A stretch of DNA of 63,356 nt from a virus, in IMG/VR virus record IMGVR_UViG_3300025889_000004, positions 1 to 63,356 of that record, one strand, 5' to 3'. The position numbers and the translations under genes are program-made. A model generated the notes under the pieces. The model ran no database searches and was not told the DNA's origin. It saw nothing but the letters and a program-made list of their open reading frames with translations. Below, piece after piece: positions 4,663-63,356 of the stretch. Position 1 is the first letter of the stretch; every line of letters begins with the position of its first letter.

Positions 4663-4883
4663 CCAAGACCTGCATCAGGTGTGATCGAACCCTGCCGCTG
4701 GATGAGTTCTGGTCTAAGCGGCCCACGTGCGCTGACTGCGCTAGGGAATTGTGGTACGCACCTAAGGTAAAAGTAGACATCACCAAGAGCCCCAACTGGC
4801 CCATGATGGAACGCATGATCCGGTTGGGGCTCATCTCCTACCCCGAAGAAGCATTTCCAGATGACGAGGATAGCAGCGATTGA
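4632..4883 (+). CDS. Small zinc-ribbon protein
   Basis: 83 residues, overlapping the exonuclease gene by 31 bp. Two CxxC pairs (CIRCDRTLPLDEFWSKRPTC and ADCA) form a probable treble-clef or ribbon zinc site at residues 14-38. A basic, nucleic-acid-binding role is plausible; the C-terminus is acidic. It overlaps the resolvase start by 23 bp, typical of packed phage operons. Confidence 0.65.
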   Translation: MGRKEKHKSLTKTCIRCDRTLPLDEFWSKRPTCADCARELWYAPKVKVDITKSPNWPMMERMIRLGLISYPEEAFPDDEDSSD

Positions 4884-5316
4884 CCCAGGCAAGAGCGGCG
4901 GCATTGCATGGAACGATCAAGACAATGTCGTTCAGACCGCCAACATGCCGGACACGCCAACGGACATGCTCAGCCTCCTGCTGTCCCTGCGGGCTGGCGG
5001 AGTGACCACGCTGGCCATCGAGCAGCTCCCACGGTTCGTTGGAAAGAACATCCCGTCCTCCACCACCAGCGTTCTCTTTGAGAACTACGGAATCTGCATC
5101 GGTATCGCTATCGCTCTCGGATTCCGTCTGGAACGTGTCGATCCACACACGTGGCAACGAGGGCTTGGGATCGGAACGGCGCGTAACTGCGGCAGCAAGC
5201 CAGAGTGGAAGCGGAAGCTGAAGGGAAAGGCTCAAGAGCTGTTTCCCCATCTGGAGGTTACACTCGCAACTGCGGATGCCCTGCTCATCTATGACTGGGC
5301 ACTGAAGAATAAGTAG
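4861..5316 (+). CDS. RuvC-like Holliday junction resolvase
   Basis: 151 residues. An N-terminal IDPGKSGGIAW strand-turn carries the first catalytic aspartate, AIEQLPRF near residue 58 the glutamate, and TADALLIYDWA at the end the last acidic residue, all in RuvC/RNase H-fold order. It would resolve recombination intermediates before packaging. It closes the replication/recombination block ahead of a structured non-coding stretch. Confidence 0.85.
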   Translation: MTRIAAIDPGKSGGIAWNDQDNVVQTANMPDTPTDMLSLLLSLRAGGVTTLAIEQLPRFVGKNIPSSTTSVLFENYGICIGIAIALGFRLERVDPHTWQRGLGIGTARNCGSKPEWKRKLKGKAQELFPHLEVTLATADALLIYDWALKNK

Positions 5317-5370
5317 TATCATTTGGCGATTCGTGCTTGCGCATGATTCGCTTCCAATCACATTGAGCGC

Positions 5371-5525
5371 GTCCTCACTAAGGAGGACAAAGGGAGTAGC
5401 GTCCCTCGAGCACCAGATGAACACAACAGAATCCCCAATCCAGCCAGTAGAGGATGGTTTTCCGACCACAGCCACAGTGGTCGCGTGCACCTACGCTACC
5501 TTCTGCTGGTTGGATTGGGGTTTTT
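5371..5525 (+). ncRNA. Structured RNA element ending in a U-run (possible sRNA or complex terminator)
   Basis: Four kinds of stem follow one another: GTCCTC/GAGGAC (5371-5376 with 5383-5388), AGGGA/TCCCT (5391-5395 with 5402-5406), and an outer 18-bp stem (5433-5450 with 5503-5520, two G-U pairs) enclosing CGACCAC/GTGGTCG (5463-5469 with 5477-5483) and GCGT/ACGC. Five Ts follow at 5521. The gap 5317-5535 has no convincing gene. It may terminate resolvase transcripts or be a discrete small RNA; the fold was done by eye. Confidence 0.6.
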
Positions 5526-5535
5526 GTTGTGACCC

Positions 5536-5748
5536 ATGAAGCTAGAAATCCAGAACCAGTATCAGACTGAAATTTACGCGTCAGACGTCGGATACTGTTG
5601 CATAAGTCAGCATCATCCAAGCGGAGAGGCGGCGCTTGTTATAATAGCACCACAGTGCGTCGACCAGCTTTGCAGCCTGTTGCAAACAGCAAAGTCTGAA
5701 GCATCCAGGAACCGGATTGAATTCTGGAAATCGGAGGGCGAAGAATGA
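5536..5748 (+). CDS. Hypothetical protein (70 aa)
   Basis: 70 residues starting MKLEIQNQYQTEIYASD. Includes a hydrophobic AALVIIAPQCVDQLCSLL segment and a charged C-terminus. No family is recognised. The stop overlaps the next start (ATGA), so it leads the DUF1376-helicase operon and begins 10 bp after the U-run of the upstream element, whose structure could influence its translation. Confidence 0.55.
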   Translation: MKLEIQNQYQTEIYASDVGYCCISQHHPSGEAALVIIAPQCVDQLCSLLQTAKSEASRNRIEFWKSEGEE

Positions 5749-6491
5749 GCGCTGATACCAAAAGAGGCGCACCAGCGTTTCAATTCTACGCTGACGATTT
5801 CCTGTCTGGGACAATAACAATGACCAACGAGGAGCGAGGGGCGTACATCGCTCTGCTCTGCATCCAGTGGTCCAAGGGATACGTCAGCCAAATGGACTTC
5901 GATCGCATTGCATTGGCAATGCCACCGCATTCCCAAGCTATCTGCCAAGAGAAGTTCCAAAAGGATGCCGATGGCTGCATGAGGAACGCTAGACTTGAGA
6001 AGGAAAGGCAGAAGCAGGCGGCTTACCGGAAAAAACAGTCTGAAAACGCCAATTCTCGATGGCGTGGCAATGCCAACGCAATGCCACCGCATGTGCCAGA
6101 AACATGCTCTCCGTCTCCGTCTCCATCTCCTACTATAAATACATACGTCGCTCTCGCTCCTGAGGCAGAGGCTTTGAAGGAAAGAATCTCCGTATGGTTC
6201 AAACGGCGTCCAACCACTCCTTGGAGCTCAAAAGAGATCAAGGCTCTGAGGGACGTGATCAAGCTGGGAACTCCACCTGAAGACATCGACCTCCTTGAAA
6301 GGCGTTACATGTCCGGAGACCAGTACCTTCGCAGGGAGATCATCACCCTGCTGAACAACTGGAACGGCGAGATCGATAGGGCTAGGGGCTTGTCCAGATC
6401 TCCTCAGCACCAGCTCGAGCTTCCCAAGCCAAAGCGGCCCCCAGGCAAGGAGTGGATGGACGACCCGAATGACTGGAGGCATGCGCTATGA
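5745..6491 (+). CDS. DUF1376 replication protein (winged-helix, helicase-loader-like)
   Basis: 248 residues. The N-terminal PAFQFYADDFLSGT and TNEERGAYIALLCIQW are the signature of DUF1376, a winged-helix domain common in phage replication genes. A basic linker and a Ser/Pro-rich hinge (about 120-130) precede a C-terminal helical part. Its place directly before DnaB, overlapping as ATGA, supports a role as origin-binding or helicase-loading protein, comparable to lambda O or DnaD-type proteins. Confidence 0.8.
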   Translation: MSADTKRGAPAFQFYADDFLSGTITMTNEERGAYIALLCIQWSKGYVSQMDFDRIALAMPPHSQAICQEKFQKDADGCMRNARLEKERQKQAAYRKKQSENANSRWRGNANAMPPHVPETCSPSPSPSPTINTYVALAPEAEALKERISVWFKRRPTTPWSSKEIKALRDVIKLGTPPEDIDLLERRYMSGDQYLRREIITLLNNWNGEIDRARGLSRSPQHQLELPKPKRPPGKEWMDDPNDWRHAL

Positions 6492-7804
6492 GCGAAGAGA
6501 ACAGCCCGCTCTACGCAGAGTCAGATGAGCTTGGCGTCCTAGGTGCCTGCCTGATCGGAGGCATGGACTCCACGGCCGAAGCCATGCCCCTCTACAGGGC
6601 CGGAGCGATCTTCAGTGCCGAGTTACAGGAGATCTTTCAGGTAATAGCCGCTCTGGAGTCAGAAGGGGTGCCTCCAGACATGCTCGCCGTGGCGCGGAAA
6701 TGGCCCGCCATTCATTCCAAGAAGCCGATCCCTAGCCTGACCATCAACCGAGCAATAGAGGCCTGTCCTAGCGCCGCCAACCTCGAGTTTCATGCCGTCG
6801 GGGTCAGGGAGGCCTTCCGCAGGAGGCGGATCCGAGAGATCGGCATCAAGCTTTCGGCCGATTCCACCAATCCGGTGAAGCCGGTGGAGGAGGCGATCTC
6901 GGAGATGGAGGCTGGGCTGATCAGCTGTGACCAGTCCCAGAGCAACATCAAGTCCTCCAAGGCAGTCATGTTGGAGCTCATCGACGACCTGCAGGAGCGC
7001 TCAAAGCGCAACGGGGATATCTCAGGGATATCCACAGGTTATCGGAAGCTGGACCGGATGACCGACGGGCTGCAGCCAGGGGAGATGTTCCTCGTGGCGG
7101 CTAGGCCATCCATCGGCAAGACCGCGCTGGCCACCTCCATGGTCTGCTCGATGTGCATTGGGGCCAAGGTCCCGACGCTCTTCGTCACCTGCGAGATGTC
7201 CGAGCCAGCCATAGCGCGGCGCATCATGGCTTCGGTAGCTTCGGTCTCCATGGGATCGCTCAAGCGGGGCAACCTTACCCCGCCCGAGTACCAGAGGGTC
7301 TTTGCGGCGAACACCAAGATCGCCAATGCCCCGCTCCACTACTGCAATGCCGTGTCAGGAATGACCTCGGCGCAGGTGGGGGCTGAGATCCGCAGGGCGG
7401 TCCGGAAGCATGGCATCAAGGTTGTCTTCGTAGACTACCTGCAGAAGGTGCTGCCGACCAAGCGACACGAGAAGCGCACCTACGAGGTGGCAGAGGTCTC
7501 CTCCAAGCTCAAGGCGATCGCGGACTCCTGCAGGGTGTCGGTGGTGGCTCTGGCCCAGCTCAACCGCGAATCAGAGAAGGAGAAGGGGAGGGTGCCTCGC
7601 CTATCGGATCTGGCGGACTCTGGACAGATCGAGCGCGATGCCGATACGGTCTGTCTTCTGACACGAAACAGAGAAGAATCTCGTGGCGAGGCCCAGCTCC
7701 TCGTCGCCAAGCAAAGAGACGGCGAATGCGGATCGGTTGGGCTCTGGTATGAGGGGCCATTCTGCCGCTTCGACGACAATCCAGAACTCAAGGAAGTGCC
7801 ATGA
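6488..7804 (+). CDS. dnaB: Replicative DNA helicase, DnaB family
   Basis: 438 residues, close to the usual DnaB length. An N-terminal helical domain (ESDELGVLGACLIGG) is followed by a RecA-type core: Walker A MFLVAARPSIGKTALA near residue 200, Walker B KVVFVDYLQKV near 315, and a SDLADSGQIERDADTV segment with the arginine finger region. It would unwind phage DNA at forks together with the upstream DUF1376 protein. No phage DNA polymerase is recognised in the window, so host polymerase is probably recruited. Confidence 0.92.
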   Translation: MSEENSPLYAESDELGVLGACLIGGMDSTAEAMPLYRAGAIFSAELQEIFQVIAALESEGVPPDMLAVARKWPAIHSKKPIPSLTINRAIEACPSAANLEFHAVGVREAFRRRRIREIGIKLSADSTNPVKPVEEAISEMEAGLISCDQSQSNIKSSKAVMLELIDDLQERSKRNGDISGISTGYRKLDRMTDGLQPGEMFLVAARPSIGKTALATSMVCSMCIGAKVPTLFVTCEMSEPAIARRIMASVASVSMGSLKRGNLTPPEYQRVFAANTKIANAPLHYCNAVSGMTSAQVGAEIRRAVRKHGIKVVFVDYLQKVLPTKRHEKRTYEVAEVSSKLKAIADSCRVSVVALAQLNRESEKEKGRVPRLSDLADSGQIERDADTVCLLTRNREESRGEAQLLVAKQRDGECGSVGLWYEGPFCRFDDNPELKEVP

Positions 7805-26236: not shown

Positions 26237-26509
26237 ATGCTATCACCGAAGACACAGCAGGAGGTCAGCGAATGCGTGCGGGAGAAGATGGCCAGCAACT
26301 TCGCAGACATGAAGATCCGCATCGAGCCGATGCGCGAGGCGCTCAGGAAGTTCGAGCAGGCGGTCAACGATCGCTCACTGGACGGCATGCACCACAGCCT
26401 GGCCGATCTCTCCAACACATCACTCAACTGCAGGGCTAGGCTCCAGTACATGCGTGGCATCTGGGCCGTCCTCAGGAACGTTCGGGACAAGGACCCTATC
26501 GATGAATGA
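26237..26509 (+). CDS. Hypothetical helical protein (90 aa)
   Basis: 90 residues starting MLSPKTQQEVSECVREKMAS, all helical with MREALRKFEQAVNDRSLDGM. No family recognised. First gene of the unit containing the recombinase. Confidence 0.55.
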   Translation: MLSPKTQQEVSECVREKMASNFADMKIRIEPMREALRKFEQAVNDRSLDGMHHSLADLSNTSLNCRARLQYMRGIWAVLRNVRDKDPIDE

Positions 26510-26520
26510 AGGAGCTTCTC

Positions 26521-26604
26521 ATGCGGCTGTGGGACATCGCGCTGATCTTGTTAGAGATCGCAATCACGATGCTCATGCTCAGCCTCTTATCGATCTTCCA
26601 GTGA
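26521..26604 (+). CDS. Tiny membrane peptide (27 aa)
   Basis: MRLWDIALILLEIAITMLML then SLLSIFQ: a single membrane helix. AAGGAG at 26509-26514 is ideally spaced from the ATG, and the stop overlaps the recombinase GTG, which supports real translation. May couple recombinase synthesis to this start. Confidence 0.5.
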   Translation: MRLWDIALILLEIAITMLMLSLLSIFQ

Positions 26605-27776
26605 ACCCGATCGCAGGCAGATTCAAACCTGCATCCATCCCGTTCAACTCGGATCAGCTCGAGTCGCTGCTTCCGAAGTACTACGAGATGGACTTCGTCG
26701 GACTCACCTACAACACCATCTCATTCAACAAGGAGGCGCTCAACCAGTTCCTCAAGTGGATGCGGAAGGGTGGATACGAGTCGGTCACAGTCGAGATGCT
26801 GCATGAGTACATCAAGTTCATGCAGGACCGGCATACCACGATGATGGCAACCAACAGGTGGGGTCGCGTGAAGCGGTTCTTCCTGTGGATGGAGCGGCTT
26901 GGCTACATCGAGCGCAGTCCACATCACGTGGTCAGGAACAGGGTGACTGAGAACATCTCAAGTCACGTGCGACCGATGACTCTGGAGGAATACCTGAAGC
27001 TCAAGCAGGTCTCCGAAGGTCACTGGCTCAACTGGATCTACACGCTGGCTTGGAACAGCGGGATGGCCCTTGTCGACTGCTGCGCTCTGCGCTGGGGCGA
27101 CATCAATATGGACCAGTGCTACATCAGCGTTCGCCGTAAGAAGAGCAAGGCCGCTGCGGTCATTCCATTCTCGCCATCAGACGAGCTTGGCAAGGCGATC
27201 GAGGCGATGGCTCAGGTGAAGCACGATCCGGATGACTTCGTGTGCCCAGAGGCTGGCGGCAGACTGAGGGATGACACCAGAACCGGACTGATCAGGAGGC
27301 TGTCGCTGCACATGTTCCGCAAGGCGGGCCTGTCCAAGGGCGTGTCGATCCACTCGATGCGCCGCTCATTCATCACGATGTTGGCCAACTCCAACATGAA
27401 CACAGTGATGGCATCGAAGATCAGCGGACACACCAGCCCGAAGATACTGGCGAGGTACGTGTTCCCAGACCCGAACGTCCTGAGGAAGGGCGTTGCTGAG
27501 GCCAAGGAGAAGTTCGGAATGGACAACTTCGCATACGTGGAGCCGTCCAATGTCCGAGTGAAGGGAAGATCCATATCGTGGAAGCCCAACAGCCACTACA
27601 TCGTGAAGAGTGGCAAGGGATTGAAGCTTCCAGATGGAACACCCATCACATTTGTTTTCACCTCCGCAGTAGCGGAAGGTAGAAAGGCGGTCGTCACACC
27701 CTGTGACATCGAGATGAACCCTGTGGGAAACCTGCAGATCATCGCCGACATCACTGATGTGCGACCGTTCGTATAA
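26601..27776 (+). CDS. Tyrosine recombinase (integrase-like)
   Basis: 391 residues from a GTG overlapping the previous stop. An N-terminal SAM-like DNA-binding domain (FLKWMRKGGYESVTVEMLHE) precedes the catalytic domain. HSMRRSFITML supplies H-x-x-R, SGHTSPKILARYVF the second His and the tyrosine. The first catalytic arginine, normally in TG(L/M)R, is missing: the sequence reads SGMALVDCCALRW. A C-terminal extension of about 80 residues is unusual. Integration, plasmid-dimer resolution or an inactivated enzyme are possible; no att site was identified. Confidence 0.75.
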   Translation: MNPIAGRFKPASIPFNSDQLESLLPKYYEMDFVGLTYNTISFNKEALNQFLKWMRKGGYESVTVEMLHEYIKFMQDRHTTMMATNRWGRVKRFFLWMERLGYIERSPHHVVRNRVTENISSHVRPMTLEEYLKLKQVSEGHWLNWIYTLAWNSGMALVDCCALRWGDINMDQCYISVRRKKSKAAAVIPFSPSDELGKAIEAMAQVKHDPDDFVCPEAGGRLRDDTRTGLIRRLSLHMFRKAGLSKGVSIHSMRRSFITMLANSNMNTVMASKISGHTSPKILARYVFPDPNVLRKGVAEAKEKFGMDNFAYVEPSNVRVKGRSISWKPNSHYIVKSGKGLKLPDGTPITFVFTSAVAEGRKAVVTPCDIEMNPVGNLQIIADITDVRPFV

Positions 27777-28362: not shown

Positions 28363-28752
28363 TTGAAGGACTTCATCGGAGAAACGCTCGCAGCATTCCC
28401 ACCGAATCTGATCCGAGTTCTGGCACGAACCGGAAGGGGAGCCGCAGCGAGGAACATGACCCACGACGAGGTGGCTCAGCGTTCAGGCCTCAAGAGATCC
28501 AAGATACGCCAGTTGTCCGCGCTTCAGTCATGGGACACGGTCGCCATAGCTGATGCGGACGCCTTCCTGAAGGGCTGCAACGTGACGCTCAGATCCCTAT
28601 GGAAGCAGCGGGCATTCCTAAGACGGAGCCTCGACCCAAGGGTGACATCAACCCCGCTGGCCTACGCCGTGCGCGGGAAGCGGGTCCCAAGGCCGCCATC
28701 TGCAGAGGCTTTGGTGCGCGCAGCCTTGAGCCGCTCCGTCCGGCGCGCGTAA
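28363..28752 (+). CDS. HTH regulator at the convergence point
   Basis: 129 residues from TTG 28363; ATG 28456 is a shorter alternative. MTHDEVAQRSGLKRSKIRQL is a Cro/XRE-type helix-turn-helix, and QSWDTVAIADADAFLKGCN resembles the second half of a known phage HTH family. The 3' 164 bp overlap the end of the giant minus-strand gene, so the basic C-terminus may be partly incidental. Sitting behind operator 9, it is a candidate for the protein that reads the GGTGT-WWW-ACACC sites. Confidence 0.55.
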   Translation: MKDFIGETLAAFPPNLIRVLARTGRGAAARNMTHDEVAQRSGLKRSKIRQLSALQSWDTVAIADADAFLKGCNVTLRSLWKQRAFLRRSLDPRVTSTPLAYAVRGKRVPRPPSAEALVRAALSRSVRRA

Positions 28753-31700
28753 GCTTCAGCTTCTTGGGGCGCAGCTGCTTGATCTTGGTCTTGATCATGC
28801 GGAGCGCCTTCGGGCCTCGAGTCAAAGCCCTGATGCGGCGCATAGCGGCAGGCATTCCACCAGCCCGCTCGGACTTGGGCTTGATCCCATCGACCAGCTT
28901 CTTAATCGCAACGTCACCGCGATCAAAGACGGCTCGCTGCTCTGGGCTCATGCGCGAGCGCAGTCCAATCTTCTCGTCCGAAGACAGCATGCGACCGAAC
29001 GCCTTCTGCTCTGGGAACTGAGACTTCAGCGACGCCTTCACCGCAGACCAAGGATCGCCAACTCCAGTGGCAGCCTTCACTTCAGCAGCCTTGTTCAGTA
29101 GCTGCTGAGCGCCAGCATTATCGCCTGCCGCACTGGCGGCGACCGCACGCCGTATCAGAGAGCTGAACTGGGTCGGCTCCATTCCGCCTCCGCCACCGCT
29201 GGTCTTTAGCTCTAGGCTTCCAGCATTCCTAGAAGCAACGCGAACCGCATCTGAAACCGCATCGCGAGCGGCAATAGAAGGGATTCGATTGAGCGCTGGG
29301 CTGACAACAGGAAGCGTTCCTCGCACCGCAGAGAGCACTGCTCCAGCGTAGTCTCCGGTGGCGGTTGCGTACTTGATGGATCTCGAAAGCGTCGAAATCG
29401 CACCAAGCTGCGGGCTGAGCTTCGTGAGGTCGGTGAGGTCGGCTCGGTTCTTCTGAGCACCAACCAGACCGGCAGCAATCTCTCCCCAGTAGGGAACCAT
29501 TCCCGCAATCGCAACACCGCCAAGCTTGGCCATGTTCTTCGCGGACGGATCAGAGATGACATCCCTGAATGTGGTCTGCGAATACGGCCTTCCAGTAATG
29601 ATGCCATAGGCAACACCCTTTGCCTCGTTCGCTGGGATTCCAGCCAGCATCAACAGCAGGAGAAGTGCAACGAGTGCCGCGAGTTGAATTCCACCAGCAA
29701 TGACCTTGTCCTTGCGCTCTGTGCTGATCGAGGAAAGGCCCTCGAGGGTTCCAAGCCAGTTCGACATCCAGCCTGGGAATCCGATCAGGAACCGAATAGC
29801 TCGTCCGAATCCACCGCGAGTCTTGATTACATCTGCACGAGCAGAATCGACAGGAAGGTTGGAAGCTGCCAACGCACGCATCAAAACGTCTGCTTCAGCA
29901 TTCTGATCAGCTATAAGCGGAACCGAGTAGATGTCCTGACCCGCTTTGCGAGCCGCTTCGACACGCTTGTGGTAGTCGGCCATCAGGAACTCAATGCTCC
30001 CAGCTGGAACCAGCATGTCCTTCAGGATGATCAGCTGCTCAGGCGTCCAGCCAGCGTTCTCGAAAGCTTCCTGAGGAGTGATGACATTGTCTGGGTTGGC
30101 CCAGTTGTCCCAGCCAGGATTACCTGACTTGGAACGAACCTGCATCATGCGCTCACCGGCCATGAACATCACAGCCAGATGCTTCTGCAGGGTCCTCGTG
30201 ATCTCGGTGTTGGCGAGCTCGTCAGCCTTGGGCTGCATGCTCATCATAAACTCCCGCAGAGAGGCTACCGCTCGATTGGAGAACATCTTGTCGATCGCCC
30301 TAGCCGAAGGGGAGTCGACTTCTCCAGGCTGACGAACCACGTTGCCGTAGGTTCCCATCTCGGAGATCAGCTTGGCGCTTTCAAATGGGCTGACGGTTTC
30401 AGGTTCCCATCCACCAAGCTTGGCAATCTGAGCAACACGAGCGTATTCGTCGGAGACCCTGATGAACCTCTCGGCGAAGACACCGAACGCCCTTCGGTTC
30501 TTGCGCATGATTGCAGACAGGGTCGGGTTGGTTACGATCGCCCTCTCGACAAGACGCAGCACCGGCTTTGTCCCAGCAGTCAGGAGCGCGCTCGCCATCG
30601 CCCTAGGATATGACTTGAAAGACAGGCCTCGAGTCATCGACCTAGCCACAACATCTCCACCGGCTACGCCGAACAGATAGTTCGTGATCGGAACCATCGG
30701 CGTCGTGAGCAAGAGGATCTTCTGAGCAAGACCGGCTTGGCCCAGGAGTCCACTGTCGTCGTGGACATTGATGCCCTGAACCCGCTGGGTGAACGTGTCG
30801 CGAAGGGTCTGGACTAGGCTAAGCAGCGTCTCTGCCTTGGATCGATCGATGTAGAACTTGCCGCTCTTGATGTCTGCCTTCAGCGATTCCGGATCATTCT
30901 TCATCCGCTCGCCGATGTTGATGATGTACTGCTTCAGCGCGGACTCGACATCCATCATCTGACGAGCGATCTGAATCAGGGAAGGAATCTGGGCGGCAAC
31001 CAGAAGTCCATTGATCTCTGCGTCCGTAGACAGCGTGTACGAATAGAACACCCCAGGTGCCACCATCTTGCCACGAGGCTTGGTGAACTGGTTCAGCCCA
31101 TCAACAACGCTGACGATTGCAGTTTGGGATTTATCGTTTCCACCACTGATGGAACCATTCGAGCTCTCTTCGACGTATTTGCGAGCTTCCTGCTGGCTGA
31201 CGAGCTTCTCTTGGTCGATCGCGATCGAGAACTTGCGCACCTCATCGAGCAGGCTGCGCTTAATATCGGACTCTATGTCGGACATCGACGCAGCTGCAGG
31301 GCTCATGTCGGCGATCTGACTGACAAGCTCGTCGGTCGTAGTCGGCAGCAAGGCTGGGTTCTTTCGCCAGCGGATCGCCAGCTGCTCGTAGATCTTAGCG
31401 TAGTTGCTGGTGTTCTCGAAGTCGCTGTTGGTCTCAGCAACGTACCGCCTCAGGACCTTGCTGAACGCAGTGGGATCATCGAAGATGGCCTCGATCGCCT
31501 TCAGCTGAGCGTCCTCATCCTTGATGCTGTTGACCGCGTCGAGGACCTTCTGAACGTAGAAACCTGGAGATCCAACGTGGTTCTCCCTGCGGAGTCTGCG
31601 AGGAGTTGTTGCGGCACCTGCGGCGAATGGCTTTCTGAATACATTCCCCTCCCTGATGAGGTTCGGGAAGTGCTTGATGATTCCTCCAACAAAATCACCG

Positions 31701-34700
31701 CTGGCTACACCGTAGACCTGATCCGCAAAGCGTGCCTGCAATTCGATGGACGCTAGGTCCTCCTTGGTCACGATGTGACCGAATGGAGTGGCCTCTCCAA
31801 CCTTGATCATAGGATCCCTGTCGTTCTGACGGGAGTTGAGCAGCTCGTTAGCAACCTCCTCCTGCCACACCATAGGATCCATCCCAGGATGAGACTTGAT
31901 GGCGCGATACTGAGCGACCTTCAGAGCCAGAGCTCCGAAGAACTTATTGGCTTTGACTGCGGATAGCTTCTTCTCGAGCGAGTCTTGGATGGCATTCAGC
32001 AGAGACAACCTCTTGCCCATAGGCCCAGGAATCATTCGAGCCAGAGCCATCCGGTTCACCAGAGCTTTGACTCCAGGGAATCTCCTACCAAAGACGAATG
32101 GGTTCAGCCATCCAGCGGTAAGCGCGGGAGATGCGGTCTGAGCACCGTAGTTCCGCAGCCTATCGCTGAGCTGCTTGAGAGACTCAAGCTCCACTGGATC
32201 AACAGCAACAGTTCCTGAGGCCAGCTGCTGAAGGCGCGCCTGCACTGCGGACACAAGCTTGTAGAAGTCTATGCCAGCCTTTGTGTCGGCAGCGACATCG
32301 AGCTGAGGATTGAAGAAGTACTCCTGACCATCGATCACCCATCGCTCACCACGTCCACGCGGATCAACTGTTCCAAGGATCTCTGGGTTGGAGTAGCCAA
32401 GGTTCTTGGTAGCGGTCGCGTACGAATCCTTGAACTCGGGAGATGCAACGACGCTCTCGAGCAGAGCGATCTGCTCAAGCGTAGCTGCGAACTCGTTGTC
32501 GATCCGTTCGATCTCAAGGTTCAAGGCCTTGAGGCGCTCCAGCTCAGCCTCCTTTGTGGACCTCTCCCTGTAGTATCGCTTCGCGAAATCCTCTATCGAC
32601 ACCTTCTTTGACTTCGCAGCAGGAGAAGTAGAGGCCAGCGCGAAGTAGTCCTCGAAGGCTTTCCTGTCTGCCGCAGCAAGATCGAGATTGGCCTTGTAGT
32701 CCTTGATCGTCTTGAGCGAAGAGGCGAGGCCGCGATAGGACTCAAGAACGGAACGCTTACCAGAAGCCGGAGGCGTCAGAAGCTTTGCGATCGTCTCTGG
32801 AAGGACCTTGCCAACGAGCACGTTGTTATCGACGACGTACTTGAGGATCGCGTCGTTGTTTCCGGCCGCCTTGGATGCAGCGATGACCGAATCAGGAACC
32901 GCATCGGAGATGATGTCTATCGCCTTTGAGACATCCGCATTCTGCTTCTTTATGTAGAGGGCCGCGTTGGTTGCGTTGACCTTGGCCTGCTCCAGCGCCG
33001 CATCGACTCCAGAGAATGTCCGCAGCTCGTCTCGAATGTACTTGGAGTAGTCCTTAAGCAATGCGCGCTGTGCGGTTTCAGCAACCTGAGCAGCAGACTT
33101 CGCAGCCATTGCCTCAGCAAGCATTGAGATAAGGCGAGGCGATGTCATCTGCTCTCGCAGTGCCTCGAGCTTGGCATTTTTCTTGGCGAGAACGTCTAGG
33201 ATGTTCTTGCCCTGATTCCACACCGCATAGCTGAAGCTGCCCTTGTTCGGATCGTTTGCATTGATCAACGACAGCGGAATGGATGTCGTTGAGATTTCGT
33301 TCAGCGACTTCAGCCAGCGCATCCCACGCTCAGCAGATTCAGAGAGTCCAGCCAGCTGTGCTCCAAGCCCTGCTGGAAGGAGTCCGCGCTGCACTGATGC
33401 CGACTGCTCAATGGTTGTGACCTGAGACTGCTCAAGTCCTGGCCTGCGTGTTTCTGATTCAACCTGAGCTCGCGTCTTGAAAGGAGTCTTCGAGTACCTG
33501 ATGTCTGCTGACTGAAGATTGAACCGCTGGCTCAGAGGGATGACGTTGCCGGAGTCGTCATAGGTAACTGGATCAGCCAGCTTGGCCTGTCGTGATGCTT
33601 TAATAAGAATCTCAGGAGCCCCATACGAAAATCCTCCAGCACCATCGGCAATTACAGCATCTGCATTCGACCTGCTTGCCAACTCGTCAAACGCTTCACC
33701 CTGTTCAACAGAACCATACTCTTCAGAGAGCTCTTGATAAACATCACGAAGAGCCCTTTGAACATCAGTGGTTCTAGCGTCGAGGAGGTTTTCGGACTTC
33801 AGGTAGAACCTGCGAGGGGTTCCGTACCTCCTCGCGTAACCAATATCTGGAGTGAAGTAGAAACCCCTGCCCAAATTGCCGCCGTCATATTCGCCGTATT
33901 CAAGCTCCTCTCCCCTGCTTTCAGCCTGCTCGGCGAGTGATAAGAATCTGTTAAACGCAGTCTTTGATGCATGATAACCAGACAATGCGTACCCAGCAAG
34001 GCGAGCAGCCTCATCTACGAGGCGCTGCGCGGCACCAATGTCTCCAGCTTGAACAGCAGCCAAATACTCCGCATCAAGCGACTGCATTGACTGAGTTGCC
34101 GACATTGCGGAAAGCGTCTCGACCACCTCGTTCCCATTGACTGTGTATGTCGTCGATGGGCGGGACACACGCGCATGAACCTTGGCTACTGCTTTGGCAG
34201 CGATGTACTCAGCGGCCAATCGAGTGAGCCGAACACCCTTGCTGTTGGCCCACGCAAGCACGCGACCGGTGATGCGCTGGAACCAGTTGCGTCCCCTCCA
34301 AGCCTTGGCCAGAAGCTCGACCTTGCGGGCGTCCTCTTCGCGAGAGACTGCGGCAGGATCGTACTCAAGTCGGGCAACCTCAGCAGCGATCTCGGCAGCC
34401 TCATCTGGCGTGACCTGTGAGATCTCAGCGGCAAGCTCTCCATTCGCGTTCGCGGCTTCGGACTCCTCGTGAAGCAGGACCGTGTCGATGTCCGCTGCGG
34501 AGGAGACCTTCGCGGAGTTGATCTCGATCCTAATGATTCGACCGTCCGCTTTGCTGATGAAGATCCGGCCATCGAAGTTCGCGTTGGGGTCGTTCACCAC
34601 ACGAACCAATCCGCCAGATTGAATGCCGAACCGAGAGAGAAGGCGATCCTCAACAGCAGCAACAGTCAGTCCGGTTGCTGGGCCGACATTGCGGCTGAGG

Positions 34701-37700
34701 AACTCAAACGGCTCCTCTGAATTGCTTTCATACTGATCTGCGATGTAGCCAAGGCCATCAGTTCCAGTCTTAGAGTAGACTTCCCACGCCTTTTCAAACC
34801 CTTCATTGAAGAGCTGCTGCCTTATATCAGGGTCTAATATTTCTCTGCCAAGAGCCAGACCGATGACTGTTCGATCAATCTCAGAAATCGACTTATCAAA
34901 TACCTGTCTAAACCGAACTTTGTCTACAGGCCTTCCGAAGTTGTTTTCCTCAGCAACAACAGTGTATTCGATAAGTTTATCAGACAGGATGCTATTGAGA
35001 GTGAACGCGTCTCCTCTTCCACCAATAGAGGCACCAACATCAATGCCGCCAACTGTGGAAGGAACTCCAGTTTCAGACATCGGGCTTCTCGCGAAAGCGC
35101 CAACACCAATACCACCGAGGGCCTCAGTCTCACCACCCTCGTCGGTCTGTCTAGTCGGAGCGGCAGTCTTGGAAAGCGGGTCAGTGGATGCCCATTTAAT
35201 GTAGTCCTTTATCAGCAGGCTTTGCGCGTCACTGACTTTGAAATTTGCGCTCTGTTCTGGATTCTGAAGTCGCCTTACAATCGATTGAAGGACCCTCTTG
35301 GTCCACATCTTGGAGATCTTCGTGTCGTCTATTAGTAGACCTGGATAGTTCCTGCTGAGAGTTATCGCGATCTGCTTCGGTCCTTCCAAGATTTGGAATG
35401 AAGCGCTTAGGAAAATCCTTTCCTCTCTTGTGAGGTCGTTCTCAAAAGCCTGCCGCTCCGCCTTTTCCTCTTCGGACTCAGAACCGGTTTTGGTCCTGTT
35501 TAAGAGGCTCATGTATCGCTGATACTTCGGAGAGCTCTCGAAGTCCTGAAGCGATGCCAGAGCACCTTCCTGATCTGGTGTAAGCTTGTCAGATGTGTCG
35601 CTATCCTGCTCATCGACAACAGGAGCTTCGGTCTTCGTGAATGGGTTCTTGCCCTTCTTGAGCACCACCGTCTCGCCTCGCTTCTTGCCATCGGCATTGA
35701 CGCGTTCAACCCGAACTCCGCCGTCAGGAAGCGAAGTAAATGTGAGGCGATCTCCCAGCGAGATGCCATTTGCCTCGGCGTTGGTGATCTTGGTTTTGCG
35801 CTCTGCGGACTTCTTGGTTTCAGACTCAGCACCAACCACCTGAAGCTGAATGGTGAGACTGCCATCTTGGTTGATGCTGGCGGGTCCAGCGATCTTGGTT
35901 TTACCAAGAGGCTTTCCTTCTTTGAGCGGGCCGAACACCGAAGACTTCAGCTGAACAAAGTCGCCAGCCTTAATGGTGGATCCGTCTGCGTAGACAATGG
36001 TTGTCTGCGCCAAGGGAGCAGGAGCTGCTGGAGCGGGAGCTGCAGCGGGAGCCTTCGGTGCGGGTGGAGCGAAAACGGTTCGCGAAACATAAGCCTCTGG
36101 GGCAGCCGCAGCGCCCTGAGCGTTGATCCTCAGCGAGGAAACAAGTTCACTGAATGCGTCTGATGTATCGTCCCTAGTTCCAGACTCCTTCTGAACCCTA
36201 AGCACCTCATCGTGGTCGGCCTTTGTGATATAGCCAAACTCAAGGGCCTTCTTTGTCAGCGTTTTAAGGCGCGAAGGAGACTCAAGGTTGTTCTCTGCAT
36301 CCTCTACAGCAGAGATGAAGCTTGAGCGGTCTTGATCCTGCCCGACTGGAGCAGGAGCAGTAGCAGGAGCAGCTGGCTGAGCTGGGGCGGCCTGTTCTGA
36401 TGGCTGAGCCTTGGATTGAGCGGAAAGCTCCTGATAGCGAGAGACCAAGCCTATCGCCTGACGAAGCTCAGGGATCGACTGGGACTGCCATCCATACTTT
36501 TGTCCGGCCTCGAAGATGGCCCTTGATCGAGCAGAGCGTGTCGGAAGGGCGTTTGCGGCGTTCAGCTCCGCCTCGTAGGCAGCAATATCAGACGGAAGTT
36601 TGACCCGTAGAAGGCCAGGATTGTTTGGATCCCTTGCGAACTCCTGCTCCGCGATCGTCTGGCCAGCACGATAGGAATCGTCCTGCCAAGGCTGCGTCTG
36701 AGCAGCCGCTACTTCCGCCCTTCCTGCGACATCTGCTGGAACTTGTCCTTGCCGTACTTGCGCCGCCCGATCCACGCGGCCAGCGCCTTGGGCTCCTTGA
36801 CCCCCTTCTTGGACAGCTGGTTGACGAGCTTCTGGAACTTGGACTGTGGCTTCATTGATCTGTTGGAGTTGGCGTTGTTCTTGTGCGCGAAGATCTCGGA
36901 GGCGCTGGGCGACCTCTGGGCTCATTCCTAGGGTCTGCCTAGGCTCTGGAGCTATCGGCCTCGTGGCGGCCCCATAGCGGCTCGCCTGAGCGGCTTCCAA
37001 AGCGGCAAGCTGTTCGTCAGGAGACCTCTGAAGCGCTGCGGCTGCATCCTGCCTAGCCTGAAGCAGTGCGCTTTCGCTATTTGATCGGCGTTGAGACTCC
37101 TCTCTGACATTCGCCATTGCGGCTGCTGTCAGCCTGTTCTGCTCTGACGTGGCGGTTACGAACCTGTCTAGTCGGGCTGATAGATCGATCAGAGGATCGA
37201 CTCTTCGATCCACCACATTTGCACCAATCGCAGCTTCGATGCGTCGATTCAGAAGCTGAATGATTCTCGGAGAAACGGAAAGGAGCTCGTCCCTCCTTAC
37301 TGTGTCTTGATTAGGATCAGACTCGATGGCGTTCAGTTCAGACTGTGCGGCATCAAATAGCTTCTGTATCTCTGGGTTGATCGGAGGAAGCTCTGACCTC
37401 TGAATACGACCTGAGAGAATCGCCTCGTCGATTGGGCTCGTGACTCCAGATGTCGAAAGCACATCTCCTGCAGCACCTGTAGTTTCAATGGGTCCAGCTC
37501 GACGCGGTTCAACAACAACATCGGGCGTCGGCTCGGAATACATTCCAGCCTCGATTGCTGCCCTGCGAGCTGCAGCGTTATTTGGACGGGCCGTTCGGAA
37601 CGGAACGCCAACACCTTTGTAGGTCTGTCCGATTCCACCTTCAGGCGAGACCTGAGTTCCAGATGTGTCGACTGTCTCTTGGAAAGGCGCTCCATAGACA

Positions 37701-38956
37701 GCGCCGACATCGCCACGATCAACAGACCTAGCTCCAAGACGACCAAAGTAATCCTGAAGCTCCTGCTCCAGCCGATCCTCTCGGCGGGCATCTGCAAGTC
37801 TTCCGATGCCAGACTGGGTGCCGCCTATTGCGCCACCAATGAAACCACCAGTGAGTCCAGCCCCAATGACTCTAGTGGCCGCCTCTTGTGCGGTTGGAAG
37901 ACCGCCTCCACCAGCTCCGACAGAGAGTATCGAAACACCCTCCTGCCCAGCCTCCGTGAGTCCTTCTGAAAGAATGTCTTTTCCAACTCCTCTTGCGAAT
38001 CCACCGACACCGCGTTGCGCATATTGCTGAGCGAGCTCCTGAGCAATGTCACGCGCTTCACGCTGCGCAGCCCCAGCGATCCCAAGTACAGGTGGTACAG
38101 ATTCCCTGACTGCGCCTTGGGCGATTCTCCTAGCGGTGCCAGCTGGAACGGCTCCGATCGTCTCCAGCGCACCAGAAAGAAGACCACCTCCAATACCAGC
38201 AGCACGCTGAAGGGGGCCAGTTTCTCCAGTAGCCTCAACAATTTCTCCGTAGATAGCACCGCCCTCTTGAGGTGCAGTGGTGATAATGGGAGCAGCAGCT
38301 CCCGTCAGCGTCTTGCCAGCTCCAAGAAGTCGGAGAGCTCCTGCGGTCGGGGCAGTGGCGAGGATCTGAGGAATCTGTTGAATCACCTGCGCTCCAAGAA
38401 ACCCAGGAATATCACCTGCGGTCTCGATTTCTGAAATCGACTTCGGAGCTGTGGTTGGAATGTCGGCGAGCCCAGACACCTCACTTCCGGCTTCGCGAAG
38501 ACGGTTCGACAAACCTCCAGGGATCGCGGATGCGGCCAGTCCAGCCAAGCCACCAACAACTCCTGGCCCAAACACAGACCCAAGCCTAGCCAACTCAGCG
38601 GGACTTTCCGGAGTCAGTGCGGAAGCGAACTGCAGCGTGCCTCCGGCCATTCGAGCGATCCCAGAACCAAGCTGGCGACCAAACTCAGTTCTCCCAAGGA
38701 ATGGGATTTCCTTGTCTGACTCGTATGCCTGAAGCGTGTCTAGTCTGTTCTGAGCTTGGCGTCCCTCCTCTCGGAGCTGTGCCATCTGGTCCTGAAGGCC
38801 AGATCGCTTGTTCAGGTAGCCAATGATGTCGGCGTCGGAGTAGCCAGCTTTTCTGGCGCTTGGCGCATCAAACCCCTGAACGCCTGAGATGAAGTCCGCG
38901 ATCTCAGAATCGCTGTAACCCGCAGCCCTAGCTCCAGCCCAGTCGAATTGTGGCAT
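28589..38956 (-). CDS. Giant polyvalent internal virion protein (3,455 aa) with ART-like domain
   Basis: By far the largest gene. The N-terminus has two AAGYSD-type repeats (YSDSEIADFI, YSDADIIGYL; 14-48). Helical and Pro/Ala-rich linkers follow (around 940-985). Near 1495, VLLHEESEAA looks like a metallopeptidase motif missing the second His. At about 1657-1815, GYHASKTAFNRF, GRGFYFTPDIGYARRYG and FNLQSADIRYS match the ADP-ribosyltransferase of polyvalent proteins (ART-PolyVal). Membrane-like segments lie near 3085-3110 and 3145-3165. Such proteins are packaged and injected ahead of DNA. Last gene of the late operon. Confidence 0.85.
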   Translation of the reverse strand: MPQFDWAGARAAGYSDSEIADFISGVQGFDAPSARKAGYSDADIIGYLNKRSGLQDQMAQLREEGRQAQNRLDTLQAYESDKEIPFLGRTEFGRQLGSGIARMAGGTLQFASALTPESPAELARLGSVFGPGVVGGLAGLAASAIPGGLSNRLREAGSEVSGLADIPTTAPKSISEIETAGDIPGFLGAQVIQQIPQILATAPTAGALRLLGAGKTLTGAAAPIITTAPQEGGAIYGEIVEATGETGPLQRAAGIGGGLLSGALETIGAVPAGTARRIAQGAVRESVPPVLGIAGAAQREARDIAQELAQQYAQRGVGGFARGVGKDILSEGLTEAGQEGVSILSVGAGGGGLPTAQEAATRVIGAGLTGGFIGGAIGGTQSGIGRLADARREDRLEQELQDYFGRLGARSVDRGDVGAVYGAPFQETVDTSGTQVSPEGGIGQTYKGVGVPFRTARPNNAAARRAAIEAGMYSEPTPDVVVEPRRAGPIETTGAAGDVLSTSGVTSPIDEAILSGRIQRSELPPINPEIQKLFDAAQSELNAIESDPNQDTVRRDELLSVSPRIIQLLNRRIEAAIGANVVDRRVDPLIDLSARLDRFVTATSEQNRLTAAAMANVREESQRRSNSESALLQARQDAAAALQRSPDEQLAALEAAQASRYGAATRPIAPEPRQTLGMSPEVAQRLRDLRAQEQRQLQQINEATVQVPEARQPAVQEGGQGAQGAGRVDRAAQVRQGQVPADVAGRAEVAAAQTQPWQDDSYRAGQTIAEQEFARDPNNPGLLRVKLPSDIAAYEAELNAANALPTRSARSRAIFEAGQKYGWQSQSIPELRQAIGLVSRYQELSAQSKAQPSEQAAPAQPAAPATAPAPVGQDQDRSSFISAVEDAENNLESPSRLKTLTKKALEFGYITKADHDEVLRVQKESGTRDDTSDAFSELVSSLRINAQGAAAAPEAYVSRTVFAPPAPKAPAAAPAPAAPAPLAQTTIVYADGSTIKAGDFVQLKSSVFGPLKEGKPLGKTKIAGPASINQDGSLTIQLQVVGAESETKKSAERKTKITNAEANGISLGDRLTFTSLPDGGVRVERVNADGKKRGETVVLKKGKNPFTKTEAPVVDEQDSDTSDKLTPDQEGALASLQDFESSPKYQRYMSLLNRTKTGSESEEEKAERQAFENDLTREERIFLSASFQILEGPKQIAITLSRNYPGLLIDDTKISKMWTKRVLQSIVRRLQNPEQSANFKVSDAQSLLIKDYIKWASTDPLSKTAAPTRQTDEGGETEALGGIGVGAFARSPMSETGVPSTVGGIDVGASIGGRGDAFTLNSILSDKLIEYTVVAEENNFGRPVDKVRFRQVFDKSISEIDRTVIGLALGREILDPDIRQQLFNEGFEKAWEVYSKTGTDGLGYIADQYESNSEEPFEFLSRNVGPATGLTVAAVEDRLLSRFGIQSGGLVRVVNDPNANFDGRIFISKADGRIIRIEINSAKVSSAADIDTVLLHEESEAANANGELAAEISQVTPDEAAEIAAEVARLEYDPAAVSREEDARKVELLAKAWRGRNWFQRITGRVLAWANSKGVRLTRLAAEYIAAKAVAKVHARVSRPSTTYTVNGNEVVETLSAMSATQSMQSLDAEYLAAVQAGDIGAAQRLVDEAARLAGYALSGYHASKTAFNRFLSLAEQAESRGEELEYGEYDGGNLGRGFYFTPDIGYARRYGTPRRFYLKSENLLDARTTDVQRALRDVYQELSEEYGSVEQGEAFDELASRSNADAVIADGAGGFSYGAPEILIKASRQAKLADPVTYDDSGNVIPLSQRFNLQSADIRYSKTPFKTRAQVESETRRPGLEQSQVTTIEQSASVQRGLLPAGLGAQLAGLSESAERGMRWLKSLNEISTTSIPLSLINANDPNKGSFSYAVWNQGKNILDVLAKKNAKLEALREQMTSPRLISMLAEAMAAKSAAQVAETAQRALLKDYSKYIRDELRTFSGVDAALEQAKVNATNAALYIKKQNADVSKAIDIISDAVPDSVIAASKAAGNNDAILKYVVDNNVLVGKVLPETIAKLLTPPASGKRSVLESYRGLASSLKTIKDYKANLDLAAADRKAFEDYFALASTSPAAKSKKVSIEDFAKRYYRERSTKEAELERLKALNLEIERIDNEFAATLEQIALLESVVASPEFKDSYATATKNLGYSNPEILGTVDPRGRGERWVIDGQEYFFNPQLDVAADTKAGIDFYKLVSAVQARLQQLASGTVAVDPVELESLKQLSDRLRNYGAQTASPALTAGWLNPFVFGRRFPGVKALVNRMALARMIPGPMGKRLSLLNAIQDSLEKKLSAVKANKFFGALALKVAQYRAIKSHPGMDPMVWQEEVANELLNSRQNDRDPMIKVGEATPFGHIVTKEDLASIELQARFADQVYGVASGDFVGGIIKHFPNLIREGNVFRKPFAAGAATTPRRLRRENHVGSPGFYVQKVLDAVNSIKDEDAQLKAIEAIFDDPTAFSKVLRRYVAETNSDFENTSNYAKIYEQLAIRWRKNPALLPTTTDELVSQIADMSPAAASMSDIESDIKRSLLDEVRKFSIAIDQEKLVSQQEARKYVEESSNGSISGGNDKSQTAIVSVVDGLNQFTKPRGKMVAPGVFYSYTLSTDAEINGLLVAAQIPSLIQIARQMMDVESALKQYIINIGERMKNDPESLKADIKSGKFYIDRSKAETLLSLVQTLRDTFTQRVQGINVHDDSGLLGQAGLAQKILLLTTPMVPITNYLFGVAGGDVVARSMTRGLSFKSYPRAMASALLTAGTKPVLRLVERAIVTNPTLSAIMRKNRRAFGVFAERFIRVSDEYARVAQIAKLGGWEPETVSPFESAKLISEMGTYGNVVRQPGEVDSPSARAIDKMFSNRAVASLREFMMSMQPKADELANTEITRTLQKHLAVMFMAGERMMQVRSKSGNPGWDNWANPDNVITPQEAFENAGWTPEQLIILKDMLVPAGSIEFLMADYHKRVEAARKAGQDIYSVPLIADQNAEADVLMRALAASNLPVDSARADVIKTRGGFGRAIRFLIGFPGWMSNWLGTLEGLSSISTERKDKVIAGGIQLAALVALLLLLMLAGIPANEAKGVAYGIITGRPYSQTTFRDVISDPSAKNMAKLGGVAIAGMVPYWGEIAAGLVGAQKNRADLTDLTKLSPQLGAISTLSRSIKYATATGDYAGAVLSAVRGTLPVVSPALNRIPSIAARDAVSDAVRVASRNAGSLELKTSGGGGGMEPTQFSSLIRRAVAASAAGDNAGAQQLLNKAAEVKAATGVGDPWSAVKASLKSQFPEQKAFGRMLSSDEKIGLRSRMSPEQRAVFDRGDVAIKKLVDGIKPKSERAGGMPAAMRRIRALTRGPKALRMIKTKIKQLRPKKLKLTRAGRSGSRLRAPKPLQMAALGPASRARRRPAGLMSPLGRGSVLGMPAASIGI

Positions 38957-61667: not shown

Positions 61668-63356
61668 ATGCCAGTCCCATTTCTCAACAGCGTCAACCTC
61701 AACAAGAACGAGGTTCAGAACTTCAAGGTCTTCAACATCGGGAATGATCCGACCCCGACGCTGACCGCCAACGATGGAGGATACTTCTGGTTCGATAGCA
61801 CCACTACGCCAACGCCTGTTCTTCGCCTGAAGTATTGGACCGGCACCGAAGCTCGCACGTTGCTCGACAGTGCCTCGACCACCATCGTCGCTGCGGATCT
61901 TTCCGGTGGCGCTGCTGGAAGTCTTCCGTATCAGCAAGGAGCTAATGACACGACCTTCCTCGGCATCGGCACCGCTGGTCAGGTTCTGAAGGTCAATTCG
62001 GGAGCCACAGCTCCTGAGTGGACAGCTCAGTCTAACCTTTCTGTTGGCACTGCTACGTTCTTGGCTGGCGGAACTGCTGGCGACATCCCGGTGCAGTCTG
62101 CGGCTGGTACCACTGGCTTCCTAAACATCGGTGCCAATGGCCGTATCCTTACTTCCAACGGAAGCACCCCTGTCTGGTCCGCCACGATCCCTTCCAGCTC
62201 CGTCTCTGGTCTTGCTGCGTCTGCTACGACCGACACGACCAATGCCAGCAACATCTCCAGCGGCACCTTGAGTCTTGGTCGGCTGAGCCTTTCAGATGGC
62301 CAGTTCTATGTTGGTGATGCTTCCAACAACCCTGCTGCGACGGCTAAGACTTCGATTCCTCTGAGCGGATTCGGTGCGGCCACTGCGGATGTGTCGATGG
62401 GCACCTACAAGATCACGAATCTCGGGACTCCGATCTCGACTGATCCTGATTCAACGGCTGCCACCAAAGGTTACGTTGATTCGGTAGCTCAGGGTCTGGA
62501 CGTCAAGGCGAGCTGCGTAGTGGCGTCCACGACTAACATTACGCTGGCGTCTCCGGGATCAATCACCATCGACGGTGTTAGCTCGGCGACATTCACCAGC
62601 GGTGTCACTCGAATCCTCGTCAAGGACCAGAGCGCACAGGCTGAGAACGGCATCTACATCTGGAACGGAACCGGATCCGCGATGACTCGTTCGCTGGATG
62701 CCAACACTTGGGATGAGCTGGTTGGCGCGTTCACGTTCGTCGAGACCGGCACTGCCAATGCCGACTCTGGATGGGTCTGTAACGTCAATGCTGGCGGCAC
62801 TCTTGGAACGACTGCGGTCACTTGGACCAAGTTCTCACAAGCCGGATCTTACACCGCAGGCAACGGCATGGTGCTGTCGGGTGGCGTGTTCCACTTCGCG
62901 CAGTCGAGTGCCTACACCGCTGGTCAGATTCCGTTTGCTTCGAGCACGTCTGCGATTGGGTTCTCATCGAACCTTAGCTGGGACAACTCAAACAGCCGCC
63001 TTGGCATCGGGACGGCGTCGCCTGCATATCCGTTATCAGTTTCTGGACGCATTTCGTACAGCGGAGCAATAGGAGAAGGTGCTGATACGACCCTTTCTTC
63101 GAGCGGAACCGTTCTGCTGCACGGAAATTCAGCGACATGGACAGAACAGCGGCACTACATCGCAGGCGTTGAGAGATATAGGCTCTCTTCGTCTGGAGCT
63201 ACTTGGTATTCGGGTTCCAGCGGAACTCAGCTCACGCTGGACTCCTCCGGCCGCCTTGGCATCGGGACGGCGACTGTCGACGGAAAAGTCCACATCTACG
63301 GCGACACATACCCAAACTCGCAGCTTCGGATCCAGCGCAACGGTGCGGTCAATGGA
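61668..63356 (+). CDS. Tail fibre protein, N-terminal part (continues at 1-1324)
   Basis: Starts MPVPFLNSVNLNKNEVQNFK and runs open to the window end; with 1-1324 it is 995 residues. Repeated GxAGxxPxQ-type beta units precede DSTAATKGYVDSVAQGLDVK near residue 255-275, a motif common in tail fibres, then further repeats with LGIGTA units (62999 and 63255). Two near-identical 20-bp stretches in these repeats show internal duplication. Host recognition by its distal end is expected. Confidence 0.85.
   Translation, partial: MPVPFLNSVNLNKNEVQNFKVFNIGNDPTPTLTANDGGYFWFDSTTTPTPVLRLKYWTGTEARTLLDSASTTIVAADLSGGAAGSLPYQQGANDTTFLGIGTAGQVLKVNSGATAPEWTAQSNLSVGTATFLAGGTAGDIPVQSAAGTTGFLNIGANGRILTSNGSTPVWSATIPSSSVSGLAASATTDTTNASNISSGTLSLGRLSLSDGQFYVGDASNNPAATAKTSIPLSGFGAATADVSMGTYKITNLGTPISTDPDSTAATKGYVDSVAQGLDVKASCVVASTTNITLASPGSITIDGVSSATFTSGVTRILVKDQSAQAENGIYIWNGTGSAMTRSLDANTWDELVGAFTFVETGTANADSGWVCNVNAGGTLGTTAVTWTKFSQAGSYTAGNGMVLSGGVFHFAQSSAYTAGQIPFASSTSAIGFSSNLSWDNSNSRLGIGTASPAYPLSVSGRISYSGAIGEGADTTLSSSGTVLLHGNSATWTEQRHYIAGVERYRLSSSGATWYSGSSGTQLTLDSSGRLGIGTATVDGKVHIYGDTYPNSQLRIQRNGAVNG
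63332..63356. repeat. Terminal direct repeat, right copy
   Basis: Identical to bases 1-25 and lies in the fibre gene. Collapsing the copies leaves a circle of 63,331 bp with the gene intact. Confidence 0.9.

Follow-up and report, generated by a model that had tools for sequence, protein, structure and literature searches.

Why does a compact, elaborately folded RNA lie between a resolvase gene and a replication operon in a phage genome, and does it act there as a terminator, as an independent RNA or as part of the message? The question arises from a phage record in IMG/VR (IMGVR_UViG_3300025889_000004), the whole of which, 63,356 bases, forms the window analysed here. On its + strand, an RNA element (approximately 5371–5535) follows the gene for a Holliday junction resolvase (4861–5316; PHROG 1770), which ends 54 nt before the first hairpin of the element. 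Behind it, on the same strand, are a gene for a 70-residue protein for which a family search gave no match (5536–5748), a primosomal protein gene (5745–6491; PHROG 9327, with DUF1376 just below its cut-off) and the gene for a DnaB-type replicative helicase (6488–7804; profile match). A sequence-only reading had proposed a compact structured RNA here, more than a plain terminator, with two simple hairpins in front of a fold resembling a three-way junction. The structured RNA is real and its fold is well supported, but the inner architecture is a different one; its function we infer below from where and how the element is placed.

The fold of the element

Positions 5310–5540 fold with an energy of −106.3 kcal/mol, against a mean of −65.1 kcal/mol for shuffled sequences (z = −9.69; none of 200 shuffles was as good), and the G-U pairs in the long stem favour an RNA made from the + strand. 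A small hairpin, H1 (5371–5388; GTCCTC/GAGGAC), is present with other sequences in the relatives that we place in group 1 and, as judged by eye across copies, has no separate counterpart in those of group 2. It is followed by H2 (5391–5406), a hairpin with stem AGGG/CCCT and an 8-nt loop that is seen in both the fold and the relatives. Seven bases of this loop, GUAGCGU (5396–5402), pair with ACGCUAC (5493–5499) immediately 5′ of the 3′ strand of the long stem, forming a pseudoknot that we call PK1. A second pseudoknot, PK2, joins GCAC in the linker 5′ of a leader start codon (5410–5413) to GUGC 3′ of the apical hairpin (5485–5488); it is weak in the window, at only 4 bp, and clear in relatives. 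The long stem, P3, comprises 21 bp (5433–5453/5500–5520) plus a further 10 bp (5422–5431/5522–5531), its strands thus running from 5422 to 5453 and from 5500 to 5531 with 5432 and 5521 unpaired. The outer stem had been recognised at 5433–5450/5503–5520, which understates its extent, and the apical hairpin P4 (5463–5483; CGACCAC/GTGGTCG at 5463–5469/5477–5483) is present as described, with support from the fold and from relatives. An additional hairpin upstream of H1 (5325–5352) occurs only in close relatives of the window (L002, L003, L004, L006, L014 and L099) and is absent from other copies.

The evidence for PK1 comes from viral contigs of group 1, collected with two DNA patterns and with the proteins of the resolvase and primosomal genes as queries. 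In all 19 group-1 elements, 7 bases of the H2 loop are exactly complementary, in register, to the 7 bases immediately 5′ of the P3 3′ strand, and they vary in a compensatory manner: GTAGCGT/ACGCTAC in the window, GTAGCAC/GTGCTAC in L003, TTCGCAC/GTGCGAA in L006, GTCGCAT/ATGCGAC in L030, TTCACAC/GTGTGAA in L012, TTTGCAC/GTGCAAA in L106, TTGACAC/GTGTCAA in L137, GTGAGAA/TTCTCAC in L138 and, by eye, CTGAGAA/TTCTCAG in L044. Among the 10 of 146 positions at which L012 and L013 differ, two are the two sides of a single PK1 pair. An alignment of 14 of the 19 elements (A1) has PK1 paired in 98.0% of cells, the two failing cells reflecting a one-base shift of L138 in the MAFFT alignment, and 6 of its 7 pairs have changed on both sides. 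The covariation score of the whole structure in A1 is 0.367, compared with 0.146 after shuffling (0 of 500 shuffles reached it) and at most 0.106 when slid. Separately, group 1 shows mosaic exchange, in which the interior of P3 has been replaced (for example between the window and L006) and the flanks and outer arms are near-identical; L014 joins a 5′ flank like that of L003 to an interior like that of L006.

The GCGT/ACGC branch on which the three-way junction had been based does not hold up. It pairs in 58.9% of cells among the 14 aligned relatives, no pair has changed on both sides and it performs no better than shuffles; because the branch is not conserved, the junction is unsupported, and its supposed ACGC strand belongs instead to the 7-bp PK1 helix with the H2 loop. 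Two hairpins do precede the main fold, but the second cannot be called simple, given that its loop is held in that pseudoknot. Conservation in the relatives extends well beyond the outer stem that a simple terminator would need, since the pseudoknots and the upper stem covary.

A second group of elements with the same plan

Loci beyond the reach of the group-1 covariance model (R1) carry, in the same position, an RNA of different sequence built on the same plan: a hairpin carrying a 7-base kissing loop, then a linker, a long stem with the complementary 7 bases 5′ of its 3′ strand, and an apical hairpin. A pattern scan for this second group returned 97 stretches, which together with earlier loci gave 60 distinct elements, and 39 of the 56 complete ones were aligned (A2). 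PK1 is paired in 99.3% of A2 cells, and 4 of its 7 pairs show changes in both partners; PK2, formed between the linker directly 5′ of an ATG and the apical loop, is paired in 98.7%, with double-sided changes at 5 of 6 pairs. Covariation was scored at 0.236 (0.118 shuffled, 0 of 500; no higher than 0.069 when slid). Exceptions are few: in L058 only part of PK1 is in register, and L183 has one broken PK2 pair. P3 is here interrupted, consisting of one short helix of 8 bp and another of 6 bp. An outermost helix formed by two CATG sequences pairs in 93.3% of cells with no pair changed on both sides, and we do not claim it.

In group 1, PK2 connects the linker to the bases just 3′ of the apical hairpin, with partners that again change together: GCAC/GTGC in the window, ACAC/GTGT in L099, CACAGG/CCTGTG in L006, ACAGTGACA/TGTCATTGT in L089 and ACAAAC/GTTTGT in L138. 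Over 12 distinct linker/partner types the mean helix score is 5.47, versus 4.01 for mismatched partners; none of 2000 permutations attained the score of the true partners. A model built from group 2 (R2) gives weak full-length matches in the right place at seven group-1 loci (L089, L012, L097, L011, L099, L030 and the window; E 0.09 to 1.8). These matches suggest that the two groups share a common descent, though they are too weak for proof.

The element heads replication-initiation genes

An element lies upstream on the same strand in all 80 loci retrieved by the primosomal protein alone (13 by R1 and 47 + 20 by R2). The weakest of these 80 model matches has an E-value of 4e-13; some of the loci helped to build the models, so the matching, unlike the selection of loci, is partly by construction. 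In 72 of 78 loci a DnaB homologue, encoded on the same strand, follows within 0.7–1.6 kb. The other six are L139, L152 and L157, whose downstream sequence is shorter than 600 bases, L106 and L138, which have a primosomal C-terminus, and L089, which has neither. The element is carried by a large group of uncultured environmental phages, in which it heads the replication-initiation genes.

The first gene behind the element is exchanged, while the RNA and its spacing stay constant. That gene may be the 70-residue gene of the window, one for a primosomal protein, or one whose product begins MIVEPDF or MTYSEKL; in L137 it is what we take, from the appearance of the sequence, to be a DNA methyltransferase, and in L106, on the same basis, presumably an HNH nuclease. 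In L138, by eye, the downstream ATG opens an ORF of about 12 codons ahead of MIVEPDF. In 79 of 79 elements the stem base is nevertheless separated from the next ATG by 12–15 nt, and in 76 of them by 14 or 15 nt.

This constancy bears on whether the element could be a stand-alone small RNA, either trans-acting or the RNA part of an RNP, that is merely lodged in the operon. Such an RNA would be expected to be compact, highly structured and strongly conserved in its arm sequences, as this one is, and to occur singly, as it does in 14 of the 14 whole records searched (weak matches on the opposite strand in those records are echoes of the palindrome). A fixed 12–15 nt to an AUG behind exchanged genes is not explained by it, however, and there is little room for an independent transcription unit: the upstream gene ends within 54 nt of the element in 43 of 70 loci, counting the same strand only and by a crude longest-ORF rule, which in the other 27 chose an ORF ending 128–239 nt away. 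A scan for sigma-70-like promoters, the one promoter type that it covered, found none near the element on either strand. We consider a stand-alone RNA unlikely.

Position alone would also suit a part of the replication origin, the transcript serving as a primer or in an R-loop, because the element always heads the initiator–helicase module in a single copy per record. Iteron-like tandem repeats typical of origins, spaced at 11–12 nt, do indeed lie a few hundred bases downstream, in or near the initiator gene (5914–5947 and 6065–6109 in the window). The repeats are of the TGCCAACGCA type in the window, L022, L033 and L058, of the ATGGCAACCCCA type (eight copies) in L150 and of the AGGTTACCCAC type (six copies) in L141; L153 has no such tandem repeats downstream, and the motif TGCCA[AC][ACG]GCA is missing from many other loci. 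Since the repeats differ between cassettes, the likely origin seems to travel with the initiator cassette as a swapped unit in front of which the RNA is unchanged. The repeats are the better candidate for the origin and are cassette-specific where the RNA does not differ, and a primer would require neither a constant distance to an AUG nor an open leader frame. A role for the element within the origin itself is accordingly rather improbable.

A U-rich spacer without a Shine-Dalgarno signal

In the window, the spacer from P3, counted to its terminal GGGG, to the downstream ATG covers 15 nt (5521–5535), and across 30 distinct forms such spacers are 54% T. An SD-like 4-mer is missing from 78 of 79, L137 being the exception. 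The duplex energy of about −5.4 kcal/mol calculated at these starts comes from the GGGG of the stem, which is paired and lies some 15 nt away. The next genes of the window, by comparison, have strong SD pairing (−10.0 kcal/mol at 5745 and −9.3 kcal/mol at 6488). The elements thus place U-rich sequence ahead of an AUG with no SD, a feature of S1-dependent, SD-independent translation.

A G+C-rich stem followed by T could also be taken for an intrinsic terminator or an attenuator, with the pseudoknots perhaps serving in antitermination. The run TTTTT noted previously is present at 5521–5525, and 3–5 T directly follow the GGGG in 67 of 79 elements. These runs are short (3 T in 20 of 79 elements, none in 12), the inner pseudoknots are conserved, and a terminator scan found nothing, although its 8-nt loop limit is smaller than the loop of this hairpin. 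We regard termination or attenuation as very unlikely. A plain intrinsic terminator, for which about 6 or more T are expected, was rejected: no element has more than 5, and 32 of 79 have 0–3. The stem might alternatively be an RNase III processing site, or an mRNA stability element, that splits the operon message. The P3 of group 1, a long duplex, would suit such a role, but that of group 2 offers just its two short, interrupted helices, and cleavage requires neither pseudoknots nor a fixed distance to an AUG, so that we give this alternative, too, very little weight.

The leader reading frame

A leader ORF of 40 codons (5417–5539) begins after the PK2 strand and runs through the stem. Its start is retained in relatives as ATG or GTG, and no stop codon interrupts the frame before the stem ends in any of the 19 group-1 or 60 group-2 elements, one of the latter (L078) being cut before the start codon and so uninformative. 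Of the two alternative frames, one is open in none and the other in 13 of the 19 group-1 elements; for group 2 the counts are 41 and 49 of 60. There the open leader frame is weak evidence, because the copies are very alike and the alternative frames are often open. The TGA overlaps the downstream ATG in 16 of 16 group-1 elements, as in the window, and in L044 the frame instead runs into the next gene. In group 2 the position of the stop ranges, relative to the first base of the downstream ATG, from 3 nt before it to 35 nt beyond it. No Shine-Dalgarno signal precedes the leader ORF (median 0.2 kcal/mol in group 2).

A conserved, functional peptide of about 30–40 residues is nonetheless an exceedingly improbable product of this ORF. 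The start codon and open frame of the examined copies would fit such a peptide, as would the recurrence of WLDWGFC in 16 group-1 copies. Against this, the frame over the conserved arms is not constant among subgroups (by eye, L138 and L044 read GWIG), and the largest class of equal length, with 27 sequences, has 22, 21 and 15 polymorphic columns at codon positions 1, 2 and 3, the opposite of the pattern that purifying selection produces. A longer in-frame ORF (5333–5539) has no match in Pfam or PHROG. On the evidence from frame and codon position we rejected a small protein gene, and the data fit a leader that would be translatable, with a peptide sequence that may be immaterial. The look-alike peptides on the two strands had been dismissed as an artefact; the palindrome does explain them and no constraint on the peptide was found, but that dismissal overlooked a start codon and open frame that the relatives examined keep.

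A candidate translational leader

From its position, the constant spacing, the missing SD, the start codon and the open frame, we infer that the element acts in cis on translation. Our favoured model, which we hold to be moderately probable on this comparative evidence, is that it is the translational leader of the phage replication-initiator operon and controls the first gene behind it, with initiator and helicase production coupled. The element would sit in the polycistronic mRNA of the replication operon. In the folded state, PK2 would block the leader start codon and P3 would end at about the 5′ edge of a 30S subunit placed on the downstream AUG, the pseudoknot and U-rich spacer together replacing the missing SD signal, for example by recruiting ribosomal protein S1. 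U-rich sites and pseudoknots are described as targets of S1 in a review of the subject (PMC10931766). In a second, coupled mode, a ribosome translating the leader ORF might open P3 and stop near the downstream AUG, and the balance between the two modes would then set the amount of initiator. The double-sided changes in PK1 of both groups and in PK2 of group 2, the permutation result for PK2 in group 1 and the exchange of the first gene behind a constant RNA support the model. Weighing against it, the leader ORF, having no SD, leaves ribosome entry without a clear route, its open frame in group 2 is weak evidence, and PK2 has only its 4 bp in the window.

A more ambitious version likens the element to an internal ribosome entry site, of which it would be the bacterial counterpart carried by phages; the double pseudoknot would place the 30S subunit on an SD-less AUG at 12–15 nt. 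We put this forward tentatively and think it doubtful. If true, it would mean that unrelated initiator cassettes can be swapped behind the RNA and still be translated under control. The combination of a swapped gene with constant RNA, constant spacing and no SD offers a direct test of whether structured RNA can stand in for SD pairing in phages when translation is started or coupled, and the element also provides a way to ask what determines the dose of a phage's replication initiator.

Comparison with known RNAs

The nearest working analogy for the proposed translational leader is the control of plasmid initiators by a leader and pseudoknot. In the I-complex plasmids (repY-repZ of ColIb-P9; repB-repA of IncB/IncK) a leader, an initiator and an antisense RNA are described (PMC10286972). 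The phage element resembles that arrangement in its upstream hairpin loop, which pairs across the leader ORF with a stretch further downstream (PK1) ahead of an initiator gene, and in a leader ORF that ends at or near the downstream start codon. It differs in having two pseudoknots, a much longer stem and exchanged downstream genes, and no sigma-70-like antisense promoter was found on either strand, that being the promoter type scanned for. In the plasmids, the leader/initiator pseudoknot reportedly acts on an initiator SD that is first sequestered and then released. The phage spacers almost all lack an SD-like 4-mer, and because this SD-release feature is not found we do not class the element as a member of the RepY/RepZ type.

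Pseudoknotted mRNAs at translation starts are also represented by the E. coli alpha-operon (S4) and rpsO (S15) operators as a review presents them (PMC10931766); those structures enclose the RBS and are bound by the gene product, whereas the phage AUG lies outside the fold and the first genes are unrelated. Phage T4 has a pseudoknot upstream of a replication gene, gene 32, which is described as a simple one, 67 nt upstream of the start codon and followed by A+U-rich repeats over the RBS, to which gp32 binds (PMC3014915). Our element has a different topology, with two kissing contacts and a fixed distance to the AUG. Several unrelated first genes behind one RNA argue against autoregulation of the S4, S15 or gp32 type by the product of the first gene. 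Other structured phage RNAs, among them c4 antisense RNA, manA and wcaG (PMC2864571), have no match at the gathering score in the window.

More generally, Rfam 15 gave no match at its gathering threshold anywhere in the window, and the sub-threshold matches within 5300–5600 are to miRNA hairpin models only. ARAGORN found no tRNA or tmRNA gene in the window, and we rejected that identity even though H1 and H2 of some relatives resemble a long variable arm and T-arm. Pistol, twister and HDV are self-cleaving ribozymes with pseudoknots; their topologies do not match and Rfam reported none. Searches of GenBank phages by blastn with the elements of the window, L106, L033 and L058 returned nothing, or chance matches of about 20–40 nt, and a search of plasmids with the L106 element as sole query found no relative. 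Among 26 pattern matches in genome contigs none has the left arm, and three viral pattern matches (L087, L093 and L101) fold differently and do not contain the element. The literature searched, mostly open-access main texts, contained no description of it. The element is thus an RNA family that matches no library searched and shows unusually clean covariation for two pseudoknots. What makes it significant is that, across a large group of uncultured phages, it is tied to the initiation of DNA replication.

Hosts and genome context

Searches of bacterial genomes gave a weak lead to a host. At E ≤ 1e-10, the primosomal protein has no match in the 399 genomes searched from the order of L129 (Comamonas) and is matched in 4 genomes out of 387 from the phylum of L134 (Pedosphaera); the relatives in the latter (L232–L237) share 31–49% identity, and their loci do not match R1 or R2. 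With R2, no element was found among the 150 candidates scored per genome in six bacterial genomes, which makes for a weak negative, and a single whole-genome match of an RNA model at E 0.93 was taken as chance. The phage terminase had no tblastn match in GenBank phages. The record itself probably represents a complete genome, circular or permuted, since the same 25-nt direct repeat, CCAGCGCAACGGTGCGGTCAATGGA, occurs at both ends (1–25 and 63332–63356), and the phage is probably temperate, judging by an integrase match at 26454–27776 (PHROG 1, E 1.6e-32). About one-sixth of the genome is occupied by a single ORF of 3455 residues on the − strand (28589–38956).
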